Below are positions 16,142-27,864 of a stretch of DNA of 40,052 bases, in pieces; the first letter of the stretch is position 1; each line of letters starts with the position of its first letter. Location: positions 1 to 40,052 of the forward strand of contig JAUYRZ010000024.1 in NCBI GenBank assembly GCA_030695565.1, given 5' to 3'. The stretch comes from Archangium sp. GTDB taxonomy: Bacteria > Myxococcota > Myxococcia > Myxococcales > Myxococcaceae. The position numbers and the translations under genes are program-made. The notes under the pieces were generated by a model. It worked only from the letters and a program-made list of their open reading frames with translations. It did no database searches and was not told the DNA's origin.

Positions 16142-17731
16142 TCAACGCTGGCGGCCCATCACGGTCACGTAATCTTGCGCGAGGATCGAGTTGTTGAACT
16201 TCACCGACAACCCAATCGCATGCTGCGGGTTCACCACGCGGGTCGCCGCGAACTTCGCCACGTCGAGCCGGGTGAGCTCGTTGTTGAACAGATCCATCAA
16301 CAACCCCAGCTGCGCCGCGGTGAGGGCCTGGTTGCTGAGCGACTGCTGCACCATCGCCTGACGGGTCAGCTCGTTCGCCGTGCTGCGCGCCGAGTTGTAC
16401 ACGCCCGACCAGGCCATCGCGTCCATCGCCCACATGCCGTTGCGGCGCATGCCACAGCCGGGATCCTGAGGGCCGGTGCCGCAGTCACGACCGGCATTGC
16501 CCGGAGGCGGGGGCGGAGGCGGGCGGTTGGGCGGGGGCTGCTGATTGCCACCCTGCTGCTGCGCCATCAGCTGCGTGTACTGCGTGCGGAACATGTTGCT
16601 GCTGAACTTGTCCGCGTAGCCGAGGGCGTGCTGCGGGTTCACCACGCGGGGGGCGCCCTGCTGCGCGACCTGCAGCTTGAACATCTCCGACTGGAACAGG
16701 TCGAGCACGAGGCCGAACTGCACCGCGGTCGCGGAGTTCGTGTTGAACATCGTCTGCACCGTCTGACCGCGCATCATCTCGCTGGTGTTCGACTGCAACG
16801 AACGCATGAAGCCCTGGAAGGTGATGGCATCCATCGCGTAGCGGCCGTCGCGCATCATGCTGCAACCCACGTCGGGGCCGGTGCCGCAGTCACGCACCTG
16901 CATGGGCGGCTGCTGCACGGGGGGCGGGGCGATCACCACGGGTCCCGGCGGCAGCTGGGGCAGGCGGTTGACGGTGAAGCCCACTTCACGAAAGGTGAGC
17001 TCGCGGCCGTTGGAGTCGAACACCGAGACCCGCGCCACGAAGCGGCCGTTGGCGAAGTCATCTTCGGCGAGCGTCGAGTAGCGGAAGTAGTGGCTGAAGG
17101 CGTTCTTCCACACGAACGGATCGGAGGGCACGCTCCACTGCTGGGTGGTGACCCACTCGCTCCAGTGACCACCGAAGCTGCGGAATCGCGCCCCCAGGTA
17201 GAAGCGCTGACCGCGCAGGTTGCGCAAGGTCAGCTCGGGCAGAATCACCTTCACCGCGGGCTCGCTCTCGAAGTTCGAGTTGAGCTGCACCTGCAGTGCG
17301 TTCATCTGCGCGAGCTGAAAGCGGTTGTCCTCATCGTCATCGTCGTCGTCGCGCCGATCGTCCCTGCGATCGTCGCGGCGATCGCTGAACATCGAGGTGC
17401 GCGCCTCATCGAGGAAGTCGGACGCGCGGTGAATGTTCTGCACCACGCCGTCGGGGCAGCCGCTCCACGAAGCGGTGGAGCCGATGTTGGCGACCTCGAA
17501 CTTGAGCCGGGCGGCATCGCGGGGTCTGCCGTTCTTCTTCAAGTCATCGACCTGATCGGCGAGCTCATCGAGCTGCTCGTAGACGGCCAGCTTGCACTGG
17601 GGGCCGGCGCGGCGGGCTTGTCTGGCCGCGTCTTCCAAAGCCTCAGCGGCCTTCTTCACCGGCCGCTTGTACTGCTGAGCGGAGGCGACTGAAGCGAGGG
17701 TCAGGGCGGCGAGCGCGAGTAGGCGAATCAT
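16142..17731 (-). CDS. Secreted protein with two DUF4476 domains
   Basis: A 529-residue exported protein starting at the ATG at 17729-17731, which has GAAGGAG at ideal spacing and is followed by a signal peptide (MIRLLALAALTLASVASAQ). The N-terminal half has an Arg/Asp tract (DDRRDDRRDD then poly-Asp) around residue 150 and a beta-sandwich-like segment. A Pro/Gln-rich linker joins two homologous C-terminal repeats, each starting CGTGP and carrying the VVNPQHA motif. These match DUF4476, helical repeats common in myxobacteria and Bacteroidota with unknown function. The two copies indicate internal duplication. Confidence 0.85.
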   Translation of the reverse strand: MIRLLALAALTLASVASAQQYKRPVKKAAEALEDAARQARRAGPQCKLAVYEQLDELADQVDDLKKNGRPRDAARLKFEVANIGSTASWSGCPDGVVQNIHRASDFLDEARTSMFSDRRDDRRDDRRDDDDDDEDNRFQLAQMNALQVQLNSNFESEPAVKVILPELTLRNLRGQRFYLGARFRSFGGHWSEWVTTQQWSVPSDPFVWKNAFSHYFRYSTLAEDDFANGRFVARVSVFDSNGRELTFREVGFTVNRLPQLPPGPVVIAPPPVQQPPMQVRDCGTGPDVGCSMMRDGRYAMDAITFQGFMRSLQSNTSEMMRGQTVQTMFNTNSATAVQFGLVLDLFQSEMFKLQVAQQGAPRVVNPQHALGYADKFSSNMFRTQYTQLMAQQQGGNQQPPPNRPPPPPPPGNAGRDCGTGPQDPGCGMRRNGMWAMDAMAWSGVYNSARSTANELTRQAMVQQSLSNQALTAAQLGLLMDLFNNELTRLDVAKFAATRVVNPQHAIGLSVKFNNSILAQDYVTVMGRQR

Positions 17732-17815: not shown

Positions 17816-19492
17816 TCAGAATTTCGAGGATTGCTTTCTGTCTTCAGGCCCCGGCAGCACCAGTTGGAACAGCAAGGTGAAGAGCGCCACCCCGGTGCAC
17901 CCGATGACGTTGAACCAGAGGAACCCGATGTCGGAGGCGAAGAAGGTGACCAGCACGGTGGCCTGCGCCAACAAGGTCGCCCAGAACACCGGCGTACCGC
18001 GTGCGCGCTTGAAGAAGAACCCCACCAGGAAGACGCCCAGCATCGGTCCGTAGAAGATCGACCCGAGGATGTTGACGGCCTGGATGAGGTTGTCGAGCTG
18101 CGAGGCGAAGATGGCGAAGCCGACCGCCAACGCGCCCCACATCACCGTGAAGAGCTTGCCGGCGCGCACCCCTTCGGCATCGGTGGCGGTGGGTTTGAAG
18201 CTGCGTTTGTAGAAGTCGACCACCGTGGTGGTGCCCAATGCATTGAGCGCGCTCGCGGTGGCCGACATGGCGGCGCAGAGCACCACCGCCAGCAGCAGCC
18301 CCACCAGGCCCGCGGGGAAGCGGGTCATCACGAAGGTGAGGAACACGTAGTCGGCGTCTTTGACGTTGGCGCGGGGGCTGACCGACTTCACCAGCTTGCG
18401 CGTCTCTTCCCGCACCACCTTCGACCGTTTCTCCAGGCTGCGCAGCTCGTCTTCCATCGGCGCGCGGCCGGCGGGGGTCTCGAGCCACCGATCGATGAGC
18501 ACGCGCTTCTGGGCGAAGAGTGACTGGTGCTCCTGCTCCAGCAGCGTGAGCGCGGGCGCCTTCTCTGAGAGCCTCACGCGCTCGAGCTCGGGCTTGTTGA
18601 AGAACACCGGCGGCGCCTGAAACTGGAAGTAGACGAAGACCAGCACGCCGACGAGCAGGATCATCAGCTGCATCGGCACTTTGACCAGGCCGTTGAAGAG
18701 CATGCCCAACCGGCTCTGCGTCAACGACTCGCCCGAGAGGTAACGCTGCACCTGCGATTGATCGGTGCCGAAGTACGCCAGCGCGACGAAGGTGCCGCCG
18801 GTGATGCCGGACCAGAAGGTGTAGCGGGTCTCCAGGCGCGGCTGAAAGTCGACCGCCTTCATCTTGCCGAACACGCCCGCGAGATCGAACGCGTCACCGG
18901 CCGAGATGCCGTTGGGCAGGTTCCACAGAATGAACACGAACGCGAGCGCCATGCCGCTGAGCATCACGGTCATCTGCAGCTGCTGCGTCTGGTTCACCGC
19001 GCGTGTGCCGCCCGACACGGTGTACGCGATCACCACGATGCCGAGGATGAGGTTGGTCCACATCAACGACCAGCCGAGCACCGTGCTCAAGATGATCGCT
19101 GGCGCGTAGATCGACAGGCCCGCCCCGAGCCCCCGCTGCAGCAGGAAAATGAGCGCGGTGAGCTGGCGGGTCTTCAGGTCGAAACGTTGTTCCAGGTACT
19201 CGTACGCGGTGAGCACGCGCGTGCGGTAGTAGATGGGCACGATGGTCGCCGAGAGGATGACCATCGCCAGCGGCACGCCGAAGTAGAACTGCACGAAGCC
19301 CAGGCCGTATTCGAAGCCCTGGCCCGGCGTGGAGAGAAAGGTGATCGCGCTGGCCTGGGTAGCCATGATCGACAAGCCGATCGTCCACCACTTCGCGTCG
19401 GTGCCGCCGCGCAGGTAGCTGCCCGCGTTCTGCGGCCCGCGCGTCTTCCACACGCCGTAGGCGACGATGAGGGTGATCGTGCCGACCAGCAC
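17816..19492 (-). CDS. Sodium:solute symporter (SSS family)
   Basis: A multi-span transporter of 558 residues from the GTG at 19492, with about 13 hydrophobic segments. Family landmarks are GLSIMATQASAITFLSTPGQ (TM2 sodium region), a VSGGTRAV loop, FGTDQSQVQRYLSG, and SATASALNALGTTTVVDFY. A charged insert of about 110 residues (roughly 300-390) separates two late spans. The start may instead be a CTG at 19513, overlapping the stop of the preceding 35-residue gene (CTGA) with GGAG upstream. That would restore a fuller first helix (SALDWAV...). It is the last gene of the bacillithiol-type operon. Substrate unknown; sugars, sialic acid or acids are typical of the family. Confidence 0.93.
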   Translation of the reverse strand: MLVGTITLIVAYGVWKTRGPQNAGSYLRGGTDAKWWTIGLSIMATQASAITFLSTPGQGFEYGLGFVQFYFGVPLAMVILSATIVPIYYRTRVLTAYEYLEQRFDLKTRQLTALIFLLQRGLGAGLSIYAPAIILSTVLGWSLMWTNLILGIVVIAYTVSGGTRAVNQTQQLQMTVMLSGMALAFVFILWNLPNGISAGDAFDLAGVFGKMKAVDFQPRLETRYTFWSGITGGTFVALAYFGTDQSQVQRYLSGESLTQSRLGMLFNGLVKVPMQLMILLVGVLVFVYFQFQAPPVFFNKPELERVRLSEKAPALTLLEQEHQSLFAQKRVLIDRWLETPAGRAPMEDELRSLEKRSKVVREETRKLVKSVSPRANVKDADYVFLTFVMTRFPAGLVGLLLAVVLCAAMSATASALNALGTTTVVDFYKRSFKPTATDAEGVRAGKLFTVMWGALAVGFAIFASQLDNLIQAVNILGSIFYGPMLGVFLVGFFFKRARGTPVFWATLLAQATVLVTFFASDIGFLWFNVIGCTGVALFTLLFQLVLPGPEDRKQSSKF

Positions 19493-19509
19493 CGCCCAGT
19501 CGAGCGCGC

Positions 19510-19617
19510 TCAGGAGTAGCTCCAGCTCATGAGGGCCAGCAGCACCACCTCGACCACCAACGCGCCGATCACCACCAGGTAGGGGACCCGCCAGCTGCGT
19601 TCGGGTTCAGCTTCCAT
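19510..19617 (-). CDS. 35-residue single-span membrane protein
   Basis: A tiny gene. Its ATG at 19615-19617 lies inside the end of the PIG-L gene (stop at 19607), and its stop at 19510 touches the likely symporter start. The product has a charged N-terminus (MEAEPERSWRVP) and one hydrophobic helix (YLVVIGALVVEVVLLALM) ending SWSYS. The tight overlaps on both sides argue that it is translated. By analogy with known small partners of SSS transporters (YhdT with PanF, or DUF3311 with MctP), it may be a small subunit of the symporter. That is inference. Confidence 0.65.
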   Translation of the reverse strand: MEAEPERSWRVPYLVVIGALVVEVVLLALMSWSYS

Positions 19618-22039
19618 GGTCGATGAGGTTGGCGAACAAGCGGTACGCACCGGGCACGCCCGCGGGCAGCTGCCGGAAGAAGGAGAGACCGGTGTACACG
19701 AAGCGGCCTTTGCCATGCTTGGCGATGAGCAGGCTGCCCTTCGAAGGGTTCTCGTTCGCGTCGTTCATCGAGAACGGAGTCTCGTACCGCGGATCCCAGT
19801 TCGCGCCGAAGTAGAGGCCGCGCTCCTGCACCCAGCCGGTGAAGTCGGCGTCGGTCAGCGCGTTCGGGCCCGTCACCACGCGGTGCTTCTCGAAGGTGAC
19901 CTTCGCCTCTTCGTCGGTGACCCGGTCCTGGCTGATCTCGAAGGGGAAGGGCCCCAGCTGCGTGGGCACGCTGCTGAGCCAGTTCCTGGTGTTGTACTGC
20001 GCGAGCACCGTCCCCCCGTCCTTCACGTACTGCATCAGGCGCTTGGTGACGGCAGGCAGGCGCGGGTTCACGTTGTACGCGCGGATGCCCAGCACGATCG
20101 CGTCGTAGCGCTTGAGCGATTCGGTGCGCAGCGCTTCGTCACTGAGGAACGTCACGTCGTAACCGACCTGGCGCAGCGCGGTGGCCACGTCGTCACCGGC
20201 GCCTGCGATGTAGCCGACCTTCGAGGTCTTGCCGCGGCGCAGGTCGACCTTGAGCAGCTTCACCTGCGCAGGTGCGAGCACGGTCTGAATCGGAATGTGC
20301 GCGTACTCGAGGCGAGTGAGGGCGCGCGTGTAGGTTGCGGTGCCGATGGTGGCGACGACCGTGAGCGATGCACTCGCAGCGGTCTTCGTGCCTGGCTTGA
20401 TCTTGAAGAGCAGCTGCGACTCCTGGCCCTTCTTGTCCAGCGTGAACGGCGCGACCAGGGGTGAGCTGGTGAAGCCTTCCGGCAGCTCGAGCTTGATCGT
20501 TCCGCTCTGCGCATCGGCGTTCGCGGTGATGGTGACTTCGAGGGGCTTTGCGTTGAGGTCGGTGAAGGCGACGAGCTCTGCGTTCGGCTTCACCACCACG
20601 GGCGGCAACACCTCGATGGGTCGGTAGCGTTCACCGGCGGTCGGATCAGTCCACTTGAACGAAGCGGCGCGCTTGAGCGTGAAGCGCTGCTCGCCCGCGC
20701 TGAAGCGGTACTCCACCAGGAAGGGCGAGCTGAGCTCGGGTGGGCCGATGGGGAGATCATCGGCGATCGTCCACGTGCCCTTGGAAGGCGCCTGCTCGAG
20801 CCAGTAGGGATTGGAGGCGGTCAACGTGGCCGGCACCTCGAGGTTCAGCTCGCGCTTCTGCGCCTTGCCTCGTTCGAGCGCGCTGCCGGGGGCCGACGCA
20901 CCCAGCACCTTCACTTCGTCGAGCTGGAGCGCTGCGTTCGAGCGGTTGAGCACCATCACGCTGAGCTTGAGCTTCCCGCCGGGCACCACGCTGGTCACCT
21001 CCGCGCTCGCTTCGACGAACAGGCCTGCACAGTTCGCGATGACGTCGATGAGCTCGGTGGTCTTCTGCTCCTTCCAGGGATTCGCGGGAAGGCGGCGGAG
21101 TTCTTCGAGCGCGAGCAGCAGCGCAGGCACCGAGTTCGCGGGTGCTTCGACTTTGTACTCGGCGATCGCCTTGTTCAGCAGCCCAGAGAACTTCTCCGAG
21201 CCCGCGACGCGTTTCCAGCTCGAGTCGATGCCGTCGAAGATCGTCCTGGTGGCCTGCTCTCCGGCGAGCGGCACGAAGTTCTCCACGCTGCCGTCGTGCA
21301 CGGGCGCAGCTCCGAAGCCCTGGCTCTTGTGCATGCTGCGGCTGAGCGCGGCGAGCTCGCCGTACGAGTACCCCAGCAGCGGGCTGAACAGACTCGAGTC
21401 CCACTGAATCGTTCCGGGCGGCAACACCATGTTGGGATCGCGCGACCACGCGTTCCACACGATGCGGCGCGCCTGCCAGACGGGAACGCGATCGAGCTGC
21501 TCAGGATGGAACTTCGGATCAGCCGCGGCAGTGAAGGCCTCGAGCGCCAGGCGGGCGGACGCGGTGTGGTGGCCGTGCGTGTCCTTCTGATCAGGAGAGA
21601 AGCGGGTGACGATGACGTCGGGCCGCAACGAGCGGATGATCCACACCGCGTCGGCGAGCACGCGATCGTGGTTCCAGATCGCCAGCGTCTCATCGACGCT
21701 CTTCGAGTAGCCGAAGTCGCGCGCGCGGGTGAAGTACTGCTCGGCGCCGTCGACGCGACGGGCTGCGAGCAGCTCCTGCGTCCGGATGACGCCGAGCAGC
21801 GGGCCGAGCTCAGCGCCGATCAGGTTCTGCCCGCCTTCTCCACGCGTGAAGGAGAGATACGCCGCGCGCACCTTCGATTCCTTCGCGAGCGTGGCGAGCA
21901 GCCGGGTGTTCTCGTCGTCGGGGTGGGCTGCGACGTAGAGCACGGTGCCGAGCACCGACACGCGCCGCAGGTCGTTCAGAATCTCCGCGCCATCCGGGCC
22001 CGAAGCCGAGAGCAACAAGCTCATCATCATTCCTGTCAT
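19607..22039 (-). CDS. Large PIG-L/LmbE-family deacetylase (candidate BshB)
   Basis: An 810-residue protein. The ATG at 22037-22039 overlaps the bshA stop (ATGA). The N-terminal PIG-L domain (about 30-290) carries the zinc site AAHPDDE (37-43) and THGHH (154-158). This is the fold that removes acetyl from GlcNAc-type substrates, as BshB and MshB do. The rest is a beta-rich region (about 330-600) and a C-terminal Rossmann/ThuA-like segment (LGIRAYNVNPRL, then DGGTVLAQYNTRNW). Canonical BshB is only about 230 residues, so this is a much larger form. Position directly after bshA, which makes GlcNAc-malate, suggests it supplies the deacetylation step. That role is inferred. Confidence 0.85.
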   Translation of the reverse strand: MTGMMMSLLLSASGPDGAEILNDLRRVSVLGTVLYVAAHPDDENTRLLATLAKESKVRAAYLSFTRGEGGQNLIGAELGPLLGVIRTQELLAARRVDGAEQYFTRARDFGYSKSVDETLAIWNHDRVLADAVWIIRSLRPDVIVTRFSPDQKDTHGHHTASARLALEAFTAAADPKFHPEQLDRVPVWQARRIVWNAWSRDPNMVLPPGTIQWDSSLFSPLLGYSYGELAALSRSMHKSQGFGAAPVHDGSVENFVPLAGEQATRTIFDGIDSSWKRVAGSEKFSGLLNKAIAEYKVEAPANSVPALLLALEELRRLPANPWKEQKTTELIDVIANCAGLFVEASAEVTSVVPGGKLKLSVMVLNRSNAALQLDEVKVLGASAPGSALERGKAQKRELNLEVPATLTASNPYWLEQAPSKGTWTIADDLPIGPPELSSPFLVEYRFSAGEQRFTLKRAASFKWTDPTAGERYRPIEVLPPVVVKPNAELVAFTDLNAKPLEVTITANADAQSGTIKLELPEGFTSSPLVAPFTLDKKGQESQLLFKIKPGTKTAASASLTVVATIGTATYTRALTRLEYAHIPIQTVLAPAQVKLLKVDLRRGKTSKVGYIAGAGDDVATALRQVGYDVTFLSDEALRTESLKRYDAIVLGIRAYNVNPRLPAVTKRLMQYVKDGGTVLAQYNTRNWLSSVPTQLGPFPFEISQDRVTDEEAKVTFEKHRVVTGPNALTDADFTGWVQERGLYFGANWDPRYETPFSMNDANENPSKGSLLIAKHGKGRFVYTGLSFFRQLPAGVPGAYRLFANLIDHGS

Positions 22040-23163
22040 TTCTGTTTCCTCAGCAACCGGGCGTAGAGCCCTTCCCACGCGTCGACGATCGGGCCCACCT
22101 GCCAGCGGGAAAGACATGCTGCACGCGCGGCCAGCGACATGGCGCGGTGAAGCGGCGCTTCCTGGAGCAGCCTCAGCGTGCTTCGCGCCATCGCGTCGGT
22201 GTCGCCCACCGGGTGCAGGAACCCCGTCTTGCCGTGCTCGACGACCTCGGGGATGCCACCCGCGTTCGAGGCCACCACCGGCACGCCGCAGCTCATTGCC
22301 TCCAGCGCAGCGAGGCCGAAGCTCTCCACTTCGCTGGGGAGCAGGAAGACGGTGCTCTGCTGCAGCATGGGAGCGACCTCTTTCGACTCGCCCTTCATGC
22401 GCACGAACGGCGTCAGCTCGAGCTGCGCCACGAACGCTTCGACCGCGGGGCGCTCGGGGCCATCTCCGAGCAGCATCAACTCGCAGGGCACCTGCTCACG
22501 CACCTTCGCGAAGATGCGCACCACGTCTTGCATGCGCTTGACCGAGCGGAAGTTCGAGTTGTGCGTCAGCACCGGAGCGCCCGGTTTCCCAGGCGCGAAA
22601 CGAGCGGTGTCGACGAAGTTGGAGATCACCTCGACGTCGGCGCTCAACTGCAGATCACGCTTCGCAGCATTCGCGAGGAAACGTGAAGGCGCGGTGACCG
22701 CATCGCTGTGCAGCAACGCCTGGCGCACGAGCGGCTTGAACGCAGGCTCGAGTCCCAGCGTGAGCACGTCCGTGCCGTGCACGGTGGTGACGAGCCTGGG
22801 CGCACTGGCTCCACACAGCTCACGAGCGAGGAACGCGCTGGTGGCGAGCGGGATGGCGTAGTGCACGTGCAGCAAATCGAGCTGCTGCGCCTGGCTCACT
22901 TCGGCCAGGCGTGAAGCGAGCGCGAGGGTGAAGTCGCCGTGTGGCAGCAGCGGGTGGGTGGGGCTCTGCACCTCGTGCAGCGTCACGTTCGGCTGCTGAA
23001 TCAGGCGGGGCGGGGCGCTCGCACAGATGAAGTGCACGTCGTGCCCACGCTTCGCCAACGCGAGTCCGAGTTCAGTCGCGATGACCCCACTGCCACCGAA
23101 GTTCGAGTGACACGTGATCCCGATGCGCCATGAACTCCCCTGGAGGGGTGAGGGGCCACTCAT
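22036..23163 (-). CDS. bshA: N-acetyl-alpha-D-glucosaminyl L-malate synthase BshA
   Basis: A 375-residue GT4 glycosyltransferase that would transfer GlcNAc from UDP-GlcNAc to L-malate, the first step of bacillithiol synthesis. The start is the ATG at 23161-23163, overlapping the bshC stop (ATGA). It matches the BshA opening IGITCHSNFGGSGVIATELG, which follows a short 12-residue leader. Family features include LLHVHYAIP, TTVHGTDV, HNSNFRSVKR, LGDGPER, and the nucleotide-sugar ExxxE region SEVESFGLAALEAMSCGVPVVASNAGG. The in-frame extension to 23262 lies within bshC and is not needed. Confidence 0.9.
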   Translation of the reverse strand: MSGPSPLQGSSWRIGITCHSNFGGSGVIATELGLALAKRGHDVHFICASAPPRLIQQPNVTLHEVQSPTHPLLPHGDFTLALASRLAEVSQAQQLDLLHVHYAIPLATSAFLARELCGASAPRLVTTVHGTDVLTLGLEPAFKPLVRQALLHSDAVTAPSRFLANAAKRDLQLSADVEVISNFVDTARFAPGKPGAPVLTHNSNFRSVKRMQDVVRIFAKVREQVPCELMLLGDGPERPAVEAFVAQLELTPFVRMKGESKEVAPMLQQSTVFLLPSEVESFGLAALEAMSCGVPVVASNAGGIPEVVEHGKTGFLHPVGDTDAMARSTLRLLQEAPLHRAMSLAARAACLSRWQVGPIVDAWEGLYARLLRKQK

Positions 23164-24740
23164 GGCGAGAGCTCCTTCACGGGCACGGAGAACGGCTCGA
23201 GCCCAGCCATGACCAACGAAGTGAACCCCGCCAACCCAAACCGCGCCGCGAACCCAGGCCACCCCAACACCCGCTCCTGAGGCTCACCATGCGGATACAG
23301 CGCCCGCTGCAACCGCTCCAACCGGTCGGTCAGCGTCTGATCACCCCGCTGCAACTCGCGCGAGTACCGCCCGCTGAGCCGGGACACCGCGCGCTCGATG
23401 GTCTTCCGGGTGCGCTTCACCGCGTCCTCCACATCCGAGCCCACCTTCGCCGGAACCGCCTCGAGGAGGGGTTCGATCGCATCGGCCAGCCGCCGCTCCA
23501 ATAACTCCGGAGTCAGCGCCGCCGCCGGGGGCCGCAGGCGTTTGAGGACCTGGTCCGCAGGCGCCTCCACTTCAGCCGCCGTGAGCCCGAGCGTCACGAG
23601 CAGCGAACGCGTGCGAGGTTCAATCACCCGAAACCGAGCGCGAGGAACCAGCATCGGCATCGGCAACCCGAAGTGCGCATACAGCGGAGGCAGCTGCGCG
23701 AAGTAGTTCAACTCGCCCGGCCCGCCGATGATCGCCGCGGTGGGGAGCAGCGTGTCTTGCACGATCGGCCGGAGCAGCGCCGAGGTGCTGAAGCAGAGCG
23801 GCTCACACGCCAACAACTGCTGCGCGCTGCGCGAGTCTTCACGGCCCACCAGCCCGAACGCGTCATCGCGCTTCTCCATGCGAAAGCGCGGGCCGTCACT
23901 TCCTTCCGGATGAAAGAACGACAGCGGCGCGCCCGGCCGAACATGAACCTGCGCCGCGAAGCCCGCTGCCTCGAGCTGCGCCGTGCGCTCCAGCAGTACG
24001 TTCGCGATGCGATCACACTCGAGGACCGCGCGTTCATGCACCGGCCTGATCTCCGCCGCGAGCGCTGCATCACGCGGGTCGAGCAGCACGAGCTCTTCGA
24101 AGAGCTCCGCCATCACGCCGGCGAACGAGCTCACCCACGTGCGTTCGGGCCGATAGTGCCGGCGGAACGACTCGAGGACCTCGTTCGCGTGCGGCAGCCC
24201 CTCGAGCGCGATGGCCAGCTCTTGCAGCGCCGCCGCCACGTTCGCGCCCAGCGGCAAGCTCGACAGCGACGAGCGCAACACCCGGCCCGGAGCGTCGAGC
24301 CCAAGGCGCACCAACTCGCCCGCGCCGTTCTGCACGTCGCAGTGATCGATCTCTTCGAAGTCGTGATCTTCACTCTGCAGCCAGAACACCGGCACGCAGC
24401 GCACGCCCGTCTCCTGCTGCAGCGCGCGCGCGGTGACCACGGCCGAGGCCGCCTTGTAGAAAGAATAGAGCGGACCCAGGAAAAGCCCGACCTGCTGGCC
24501 GGTCACCACCACGGTCGTTCCCGGGGTCGCGAGCGCCTCCAGGTTCGCTTCACGTGCAGCCGCTGCGGGCAGTCGTGCTGACTGCGCCCGCAGCGCCGCG
24601 ATCGTCGACGGCGAAACAGCGCGCGTCGCTGCCCTGCGGACACTCTCGGCGCGCCGTGAAGCGTGTCGAAAGTCGTCGGGCAGAAACGCGTGGGCCCGCG
24701 CCTCACCGCGGAGAAACGCCGGCGAGAATGCGGACGACAT
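23160..24740 (-). CDS. bshC: Putative cysteine ligase BshC
   Basis: A 526-residue BshC, the enzyme credited with adding cysteine to GlcN-malate to complete bacillithiol. Conserved blocks are clear: VVTGQQVGLFLGPLYSFYKA (78-97), FWLQSEDHDFEEIDH (119-133), and GGPGELNYFAQLPPLYAHFG with the following PMLVPRA. The C-terminal coiled coil (about 430-500) is also present, and length is normal. It starts 5 bases after the stop of the DUF2911 gene and its stop overlaps bshA. Bacillithiol is best known in Firmicutes, Deinococcus and some Bacteroidota, so an intact bshC in a myxobacterial context is notable. Confidence 0.92.
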   Translation of the reverse strand: MSSAFSPAFLRGEARAHAFLPDDFRHASRRAESVRRAATRAVSPSTIAALRAQSARLPAAAAREANLEALATPGTTVVVTGQQVGLFLGPLYSFYKAASAVVTARALQQETGVRCVPVFWLQSEDHDFEEIDHCDVQNGAGELVRLGLDAPGRVLRSSLSSLPLGANVAAALQELAIALEGLPHANEVLESFRRHYRPERTWVSSFAGVMAELFEELVLLDPRDAALAAEIRPVHERAVLECDRIANVLLERTAQLEAAGFAAQVHVRPGAPLSFFHPEGSDGPRFRMEKRDDAFGLVGREDSRSAQQLLACEPLCFSTSALLRPIVQDTLLPTAAIIGGPGELNYFAQLPPLYAHFGLPMPMLVPRARFRVIEPRTRSLLVTLGLTAAEVEAPADQVLKRLRPPAAALTPELLERRLADAIEPLLEAVPAKVGSDVEDAVKRTRKTIERAVSRLSGRYSRELQRGDQTLTDRLERLQRALYPHGEPQERVLGWPGFAARFGLAGFTSLVMAGLEPFSVPVKELSP

Positions 24741-24745
24741 CAGTC

Positions 24746-25573
24746 CTACTTACCCTTCCACTCCGTGAGCGCCTTCTTCACGTCGGCGGCGTAGAAGAAC
24801 CCGTCGGGCTTCTGCTCACCCAGGGTCTGCGCCTTCTGCGCGAGCACGAGCGCGTCGGCCTTCTTGCCGGAGGCCGAGAGGATCTGCGCCTTCACCCAGG
24901 TGTTGAACCAGGTCTCCTGCGCGGCGATCGACTTGTCGACGTAGATGAGCGCGTTCGCGTAGTCCTTGATCTCCAGCGCGTAGCGGGCGGCGTTGTTCAT
25001 CGGCTGCCAGGCGCCGTCGACCGCGGCCTTGATGTTCGCCGCCGCCTGCTCCGCCGTCTTCAGCTTCACGGGGAGCGTCACGCGAACCTTCTCCCACTCG
25101 AGGTCGATGTTGGCCGTCTCGTTGGTGAAGTTGGTCACCAGGTACACCAGGCGCTCACGGTTGGGGATGGCCGTCGGCTTCACGGTCACGCGCACGATGT
25201 CGTTCTCGGGCTTGTACTCGTCGCTGCCCCACAGCTCGTTGGCCTTGCTGACGATGAGCGTCCACGAAGCGGCGCCGGGGATGGCGAAGAAGCCGTAGGT
25301 GCCCGCGGCGACTTCCTTGTCACCAATCATCACCGGCTGCGTGAAGTTGATGGTGGTGGAGTGGTTGGCGCCCGCGCGCCACACCTTGTCCATCGGCACC
25401 AGCCCGCCCCAGATCTTGCGGCCCTTCACCGCGGGGCTGCTGTAGTCGATGGTGATGGTGGTGAGGCCCACGTTCTGAACGATCTTCGCTTCCGGGCTCA
25501 GCGGGGGAAGCTTGAGCTGCGCGAAGGCGGGGGACGCAAGGAGGGCGAGAAGGCCAACGAGTCGAAGTTTCAT
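24746..25573 (-). CDS. Exported DUF2911 protein
   Basis: A 275-residue protein with a signal peptide (MKLRLVGLLALLASPAFAQ). The DUF2911 domain (about 30-165) shows the family pattern KGRKIWGGLVPMDKVWRAG, then AN.ST..NFTQPVMIGDKEV and AGTYGFFAIPG. A helical TPR-like tail (about 175-275) follows. DUF2911 is found mainly in Bacteroidota and some Myxococcota; its function is unknown. It heads the operon: bshC begins 5 bases after its stop. Its periplasmic location contrasts with the cytoplasmic Bsh enzymes. Confidence 0.85.
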   Translation of the reverse strand: MKLRLVGLLALLASPAFAQLKLPPLSPEAKIVQNVGLTTITIDYSSPAVKGRKIWGGLVPMDKVWRAGANHSTTINFTQPVMIGDKEVAAGTYGFFAIPGAASWTLIVSKANELWGSDEYKPENDIVRVTVKPTAIPNRERLVYLVTNFTNETANIDLEWEKVRVTLPVKLKTAEQAAANIKAAVDGAWQPMNNAARYALEIKDYANALIYVDKSIAAQETWFNTWVKAQILSASGKKADALVLAQKAQTLGEQKPDGFFYAADVKKALTEWKGK

Positions 25574-27456
<1,883 letters not shown>

Positions 27457-27459
27457 GCG

Positions 27460-27864
27460 ATGGCGAAGCTCAACGTCGAGATCGTCACACCCGAACGCCG
27501 GCTGGCCCAGCTGGCCGCCGACGAGGTCATCGCGCCCGGCGCAGATGGTCTGTTCGGCGTGCGCCCTGGTCACACCCCGTATCTCTCGGTGATGCAGCCG
27601 GGCCCGCTCACGGTTCGTGACGGCGCCAGCAGCACCATCTACTTCGTGTCCGGCGGCTTCGTGGAAGCGGGCCCGGAGGCCGTGCGTGTGCTGGCTGACT
27701 CCGCAGAGGTGGCTTCGGCCATCGACGTGGGCGCAGCGCAGAAGCGCATCACGGAAGCGGAGACGCGGTTGAAGGGCTTCGAAGTGACCGATGCGCGCGC
27801 CGAAGAACAGCGCGTGATCATCGTTCGCGAGCAGAAGCGCATCGCCGTCAGCGCCCTGAAGTAA
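27460..27864 (+). CDS. atpC: F-type ATP synthase epsilon subunit
   Basis: A 134-residue epsilon subunit, the inhibitory and coupling subunit of the F1 central stalk. The N-terminal beta-sandwich domain shows LNVEIVTPERRL, GLFGVRPGHTPYL, and YFVSGGFVEAGPEAVRVLADSA. A C-terminal helical hairpin rich in Ala, Glu and Arg follows. Length is normal. It starts 3 bases after the atpD stop and is certainly co-transcribed with it. Confidence 0.95.
   Translation: MAKLNVEIVTPERRLAQLAADEVIAPGADGLFGVRPGHTPYLSVMQPGPLTVRDGASSTIYFVSGGFVEAGPEAVRVLADSAEVASAIDVGAAQKRITEAETRLKGFEVTDARAEEQRVIIVREQKRIAVSALK

Follow-up and report, generated by a model that had tools for sequence, protein, structure and literature searches.

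A bacillithiol-type synthesis operon of Archangium sp. joined to a putative envelope hydrolase and symporter module

The window, a stretch of 40,052 nucleotides from an Archangium sp. genome (contig JAUYRZ010000024.1), carries six consecutive genes on its minus strand between positions 17816 and 25573, as identified from its open reading frames (ORFs) and profile searches; they encode a DUF2911 protein, BshC, BshA, a large PIG-L hydrolase, a protein of 35 residues, and a sodium:solute symporter (SSS) family member. The operon would consist of two halves, namely the synthesis enzymes BshA and BshC, and a conserved envelope module made up of an exported zinc-type PIG-L hydrolase, a mini-protein with one transmembrane (TM) segment, the SSS symporter, and an exported DUF2911 protein. 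The reading proposed here, tentative at a probability of about 45%, is that bacillithiol synthesis is coupled to a periplasmic module of amidase and symporter by which the glucosaminyl-malate part of the molecule would be salvaged, with both the substrate and the direction of transport presumed. Bacillithiol, its oxidised forms or S-conjugates would reach the periplasm, where the PIG-L protein would cut the N-acyl-glucosamine bond, a periplasmic counterpart of what Mca and Bca do within other cells; the symporter, with the mini-protein as its putative partner, would return glucosaminyl-malate, and BshC would reload cysteine. The lineage of the window has no bshB1 between bshC and bshA, and there the large PIG-L protein, being the only PIG-L of the operon, may also deacetylate. 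Salvage of glucosaminyl-malate is suggested by the combination of a hydrolase of amide bonds that is probably exported, an importer whose kin carry acidic sugars and carboxylates, and the coupling of these genes to bshA and bshC.

Organization of the operon and its conservation in Myxococcota

The synthesis half comprises bshA (22036-23163), for the predicted GlcNAc-malate synthase, and bshC (23160-24740), for the predicted cysteine-adding enzyme of 526 amino acids. Both products score over their NCBIfam equivalog cut-offs (423.6 bits against 273.7 with TIGR03999 for BshA, and 405.6 against 265.8 with TIGR03998 for BshC, which also matches PF10079 and PF24850), supporting the bacillithiol-type synthesis proposed in a preliminary description of this DNA. 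By family membership, they are cytoplasmic synthesis enzymes, and bacillithiol is their presumed product. The other genes encode the DUF2911 protein (24746-25573, 275 amino acids; PF11138, 173.3 bits, cut-off 27), the large PIG-L hydrolase (19607-22039, 810 amino acids; PF02585, 60.7 bits, cut-off 28.2), the hydrophobic single-TM protein of 35 residues (19510-19617), found at the same position across phyla, and the symporter (17816-19513, 565 amino acids if CTG 19513 is the start; TIGR00813, 239.8 bits, cut-off 184; PF00474, 139.9 bits, cut-off 22.8). Read from the DNA, the DUF2911 gene and bshC are separated by a 5-base gap, bshC and bshA as well as bshA and the PIG-L gene overlap by ATGA, and the PIG-L gene overlaps that of the 35-residue protein by 11 bases, followed by CTGA to the symporter. 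The six genes, their coordinates, and their overlaps are thus as first described, except that the last junction had been given as either this CTGA or a 17-base gap. The symporter genes of all eight relatives compared start with a GTG inside a GTGA overlap exactly where the window has CTG, which favours the CTGA option, and the window's symporter probably starts at CTG 19513. The alternative start at GTG 19492, which leaves the 17-base gap, is disfavoured, as it drops a conserved Asp and departs from the GTGA start of the relatives.

The coupling of the two halves is most evident from their distribution. A BshC match was found in 65 of 195 Myxococcota genomes (64 over the cut-off), and the large PIG-L protein was present in all 65 of these, compared with two of the 130 BshC-negative genomes (G111 and the fragmentary G142; G numbers denote genomes, L numbers loci, and C numbers contigs). 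Another 17 BshC-negative genomes held only PIG-L matches below 45 bits. The contig of G111 is broken just upstream of bshA, which sits at the contig edge, so its bshC may have been lost to the assembly break. Within the window's own genus, BshC and the large PIG-L protein occur together in two genomes, and neither occurs in four. The genes are also clustered, with the PIG-L and symporter genes in the stretches of all 65 BshC-positive genomes, bshA in 64, and the DUF2911 gene in 62; among these stretches, those of G139 and G071 are cut off by contig edges, those of G016, G017, G110, and G162 lie in pieces on two contigs, and that of G015 (16 kb) is without DUF2911. Two arrangements were observed. 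In the divergent one, the PIG-L and symporter genes point away from bshC-bshB1-bshA, with DUF2911 on the far side. The other, co-directional arrangement is that of the window, G151, G147, G108, G146, G071, G015, and G162, and also of G016, with bshB1. Myxococcus xanthus AM003 (locus L143) likewise carries the cluster, including bshB1. Clustering in 65 BshC-positive genomes, together with counterparts of the mini-ORF in other phyla, is more than would be expected by chance. The fixed functional unit claimed earlier from the tight packing of the genes is therefore borne out by co-occurrence and clustering in Myxococcota; conservation of gene order, which had been put forward as a check, holds within this phylum as clustering in two orientations; outside it, in Bacteroidota and other phyla, the module mostly lacks adjacent bsh genes.

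Proteins of the putative envelope module

The large PIG-L protein comprises a short signal-like N-terminus, a PIG-L catalytic domain, an all-beta (Ig-like) middle, and a ThuA/GATase-like C-terminus, and its AlphaFold2 model has a predicted local distance difference test (pLDDT) value of 86.6. Fold matches of the catalytic domain include MshB (Z 20.9), BshB (Z 18.8), and chitobiose deacetylases, and residues 604-810 match STM3548 (Z 15.0) and the ThuA-like structure 1t0b (Z 13.1). The zinc-site residues H39, D41, D42, H155, and H158 are invariant among 14 chosen PIG-L proteins. The NCBIfam profiles rank Mca first (TIGR03446, 39.8 bits against a cut-off of 277.15), followed by MshB (35.5), BshB1 (27.6), and BshB2 (25.3), all below their cut-offs. 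A possible parallel to the Lys of Mca, in the form of a basic residue following the HPDD motif, was considered; a literature search found nothing on it, and it is not used as evidence. Most relatives of the large PIG-L protein, including several from genomes without bshB1, carry a signal-peptide-like leader as assessed by eye and hydropathy, suggesting that the PIG-L protein of the module is probably exported, and the same is presumed for the window's own copy. Two more distant large PIG-L copies were observed in the Bacteroidota genome G438 (contigs C129 and C37), one of them with two internal stop codons.

Between the PIG-L and symporter genes, a hydrophobic one-TM ORF was found in 46 of 47 loci chosen from Myxococcota, Bacteroidota, Ignavibacteria, Acidobacteriota, Eisenbacteria, and KSB1, using a hydropathy threshold; the exception, L073, has no gap between the two genes. 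An invariant Trp and a near-invariant Tyr are shared by the 30 mini-proteins aligned, and from this conservation the 35-residue protein is judged to be real; none of the five members tested passes the cut-off of a Pfam or NCBIfam family. Two Chitinophaga loci (L087:10407-10583 and L088:10388-10561, both on the plus strand) carry an additional small membrane ORF between the PIG-L gene and the mini-protein. Sequence matches of the symporter in the Protein Data Bank include SMCT1, SMVT, SiaT (E 3.1e-41), NIS, and SGLT. Four residues (S61, T64, Q81, and R133) do not vary across 32 chosen module symporters. The first two align with the carboxylate ligands Ser60 and Thr63 of SiaT, Q81 lies one column off its Gln82, and R133 is three residues, or one helical turn, off its Arg135. 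The Ser and Thr residues are described as holding the carboxylate in SiaT (PMC5931594, in the part cited here), and the four invariant residues fit an acidic sugar as substrate; the thiol, a precursor, or a conjugate, as proposed earlier, would be the presumed cargo. Of the sodium-site residues, A420 is conserved in 32 and S423 in 29 of the 32 sequences.

The DUF2911 protein, the role of which in the module is conjectural, has a signal-peptide-like leader, a beta domain (Pfam match at residues 26-169), and C-terminal helices matching tetratricopeptide repeat (TPR) proteins, and leader-like N-termini are present in most of the homologues listed. Its AlphaFold2 model (pLDDT 92.3) gave Foldseek matches mostly to TPR-containing proteins, the best with an E value of 0.016 and none below 0.001, and sequence search found no solved structure for DUF2911. 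Two neighbours of the operon were also observed: about 85 bases past the symporter stop and on the same strand, positions 16142-17731 encode a DUF4476 protein whose start resembles a leader and which may share the transcript, and on the upstream side the nearby genes for ATP synthase beta and epsilon subunits (26035-27864, plus strand) face the other way.

Distribution of bshB1 and origin of the operon

BshB1 scores over the cut-off in 46 of the 65 BshC-positive Myxococcota, its gene usually being located between bshC and bshA, and is absent at this level from 19, including the window's genome. On a tree built from concatenated BshC, PIG-L, and symporter sequences (68 rows, with the divergent L076 left out and bshB1 states entered by hand, G139 being uncounted because its bshC is at a contig end), at least five changes are required to explain where bshB1 occurs, starred branches forcing three of these, and the window belongs to a group of 13 rows, with a support of 100, in which all members are bshB1-less. 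Neither of the two PIG-L proteins of the window's genome, the large one and a second on contig C129 (L001:793-2406, plus strand), passes the BshB1 profile (27.6 and 41.1 bits, respectively, cut-off 182.5) or the BshB2 profile (25.3 and 23.2 bits, cut-off 195.25). The second protein is unlikely to be the missing BshB, given its lipoprotein-like leader and its BshB1 score; weak BshB1 matches in G108, G151, and G146 extend across the same profile range. The large PIG-L protein is the sole PIG-L found in five genomes (G028, 98% complete; G147, 92%; G162, 92%; G015, 93%; G071, 79%). A sharp question is thereby raised, namely which enzyme deacetylates where bshA and bshC are retained without bshB1, the candidates being either the large PIG-L protein or an as yet unknown enzyme.

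The PIG-L protein had initially been equated with BshB. This is not borne out as a general rule: in addition to the sub-cut-off scores and the leaders of most relatives, a separate BshB1 over the cut-off accompanies the large PIG-L protein in the 46 Myxococcota genomes and in 33 of 33 genomes tested from other phyla (35 of 37 genomes with the large PIG-L protein were entered, and 33 counted), which argues that the large PIG-L protein is not simply BshB. It may still serve as such in lineages without bshB1, and this alternative is weighed below.

Regarding the origin of the unit, trees across phyla were built for BshC (49 rows of at least 400 residues) and the symporter (66 rows of at least 450 residues from a chosen list); these are quick trees, in which long branches call for caution. 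In the BshC tree, two Acidobacteriota (L187 and L188) fall among Myxococcota in a group of 28 plus 2 with a support of 100, eight Bacteroidota form a separate side, also with a support of 100, and the long-branched, divergent myxococcal BshC of L076 falls outside the Myxococcota group. The symporter tree groups 24 Myxococcota with the same two Acidobacteriota (support of 95). These same two Acidobacteriota (genomes G621 and G595) have the order DUF2911-bshC-bshB1-bshA-PIG-L-symporter on one strand, that is, the order of the window plus bshB1. From the BshC and symporter groupings, a transfer of the unit between Acidobacteriota and Myxococcota, in one direction or the other, seems to have taken place. 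A transfer from Bacteroidota, as first suggested, is not supported by the trees of these two genes; what stands of that link is that the PIG-L/mini-protein/symporter/DUF2911 part is common to Myxococcota and Bacteroidota.

Glucosaminyl-malate salvage and rival explanations

When reference genomes were scanned with 14 PIG-L relatives as queries, at least 436 loci were matched, the best 80 of which span Myxococcota, Bacteroidota, Ignavibacteria, Acidobacteriota, Eisenbacteria, and KSB1. Among the 75 non-Myxococcota loci, the symporter gene lies at most 1.5 kb downstream in 56 (52 of the 67 that have room downstream, meaning 2 kb or more), and DUF2911 is found within the stretch in 40. A BshC match was present in all 37 genomes searched that carry the large PIG-L protein (36 over the cut-off), these coming from 40 of the best 80 loci.

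Several observations weigh against the salvage reading. No recognisable symporter was found downstream in 15 of the 67 non-Myxococcota loci with room, and no bsh gene was found near 74 of the 75, the remaining one having a doubtful bshA of 25% identity; the queries for these neighbours were myxococcal and may overlook divergent copies. Among 247 Bacteroidota drawn, 242 have BshC, and the 73 genomes with a full-length PIG-L (at least 770 bits) all have a BshC match; given that BshC is near universal in this phylum, co-occurrence there carries no weight. The linkage is weak in Acidobacteriota, where a close large PIG-L (at least 850 bits) occurs in 27 genomes, 11 of them with BshC over the cut-off, 13 with weaker matches, and three with none, compared with 100 of 199 over the cut-off overall. 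YpdA, the bacillithiol disulfide reductase, exceeds its cut-off of 339.9 bits in none of the 195 Myxococcota (best score in the window's genome, 78.2 bits), and canonical YpdA thus provides no support for bacillithiol redox use. The N-terminus of the window's PIG-L protein is signal-like yet very short and uncharged, which makes its own export uncertain. In the symporter, position 424 (Ser343 of the SiaT Na2 site) is Ser in 24 and Ala in 8 of 32 sequences, with Ala in the window, and position 183 (Asp182 of the Na3 site) is Gln in 28 and Asp in only 2, so that sodium coupling is not assured.

In favour of the link to bsh genes, bshA adjoins the module in two of the three Acidobacteriota with PIG-L and no BshC hit, and is preceded by an ORF of about 260 residues. 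These ORFs (L175:2755-3528 and L177:5946-6728, both on the plus strand, about 257-260 amino acids) are possible mini-BshC proteins, as a candidate compared with the BshC core gave an hhalign probability of 85% (E 6e-6), versus 0.1% (E 0.44) for a reversed control. The stretch of the third genome, G533, held no such candidate. The Acidobacteriota genome G642 (L210:4663-6446, plus strand) was also observed to carry, directly before a BshB1-like gene, a diverged BshC-like gene that scores 63 bits against the BshC of the window.

A doubtful alternative is that in the window's lineage the large PIG-L protein is the biosynthetic GlcNAc-malate deacetylase (BshB) itself, acting in the cytoplasm or before export, with the rest of the module being secondary. 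It would agree with the retention of the large PIG-L protein in every BshC-positive Myxococcota genome while BshB1 is below cut-off in 19, with the repeated changes in bshB1 on the tree, with the five genomes holding no other PIG-L, with a second PIG-L in the window's genome that is lipoprotein-like rather than BshB1, and with the N-termini of the window and G071, which are poor signal peptides. However, leaders persist, as judged by eye, in the bshB1-less G147, G108, G104, G140, G061, G064, and G099, BshB1 stands alongside in most Myxococcota and in all other genomes counted, and the BshB1 and BshB2 scores are far under their cut-offs, although BshB and Bca activities are reported to overlap in Bacillus (PMC4360819, in the part cited here).

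The absence of nearby bsh genes from nearly all loci outside Myxococcota, the weak BshC link in Acidobacteriota, and the chitobiose deacetylases among the fold matches would also be consistent with a module that acts on some other N-acyl-glucosaminide of the envelope or the environment, joined to bsh genes only by shared regulation or a shared need. Such a role is unlikely, since in Myxococcota the large PIG-L protein co-occurs with BshC and the genes cluster, two Acidobacteriota carry the same operon, and a further two have bshA next to the module. An exported hydrolase paired with an importer is, in addition, the usual anatomy of nutrient uptake, and many myxobacteria are predators, so the module could scavenge bacillithiol or GlcN-malate from lysed neighbours or prey, as a nutrient or precursor, instead of recycling the cell's own; the tight coupling to bshA, which is needed for the cell's own synthesis, makes this very improbable.

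If salvage of glucosaminyl-malate is correct, transport and salvage would be added to bacillithiol biology, and a testable function would be offered for the large PIG-L/mini-protein/SSS symporter/DUF2911 set that recurs in Bacteroidota and other phyla, for which the literature searched, which was not exhaustive, gave no description or function. The recurrence of these partner genes in other phyla hints at an undescribed route of recycling bacillithiol. A broader and quite unlikely extension is that several Gram-negative phyla possess a hitherto unrecognised periplasmic arm of bacillithiol metabolism, in which an exported amidase/deacetylase, a symporter with a one-TM mini-subunit of its own, and a DUF2911 protein would salvage the glucosaminyl-malate core, and that lineages that lost BshB1 deacetylate outside the cytoplasm; in that case, the exported enzyme and the importer would carry deacetylation, placing one step of thiol synthesis outside the cytoplasm. 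There are also consequences for counting pathways, which in the part of PMC12719100 cited here is based on BshA, BshB, and BshC orthologues, BshB having been gathered in PMC6282198, as cited, by similarity in sequence and length. Counts demanding such a BshB would probably miss the lineage of the window.

Comparison with known systems

Compared with the BshA-BshB-BshC pathway of Bacillus and Chlorobaculum, the window shares BshA and BshC, both over equivalog cut-offs, and differs in that neither its operon nor its own genome has a BshB1 over the cut-off, in the coupling of its genes to an envelope hydrolase/symporter module, and in the lack of a YpdA over the cut-off in the 195 Myxococcota. 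The passages cited from PMC12719100 report most pathway-bearing Myxococcota to be without NmbA, and those cited from PMC4101496 and PMC4360819 describe bacillithiol biology as cytoplasmic synthesis, conjugation, and redox use, with Mca/Bca recycling taking place inside cells. The LmbE-like S-conjugate amidases Mca and Bca resemble the window's PIG-L protein in fold, in conserved zinc-site residues, and in Mca being its top NCBIfam match. However, that match reaches only 39.8 of 277.15 bits, and the window's protein is distinguished by its 810 residues, extra Ig-like and ThuA-like domains, and the leader found in most relatives. The module symporter is similar to SiaT in belonging to the SSS family (E 3.1e-41) and in its two invariant Ser/Thr substrate positions, but its R133 is off the Arg135 column, one Na2 serine is variable, the Na3 Asp is mostly Gln, and its gene is preceded by that of a one-TM mini-protein. 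Symporters of the VC_2705 type (TIGR03648), which are SSS members paired with a small subunit, offer a further parallel, as a gene for a small membrane protein also precedes the symporter gene in these large/small pairs. In contrast to those pairs, the mini-protein of the module has a single TM segment and no Pfam/NCBIfam match over the cut-off, and the module's symporter scores 31.5 of the 320.75 bits of TIGR03648.

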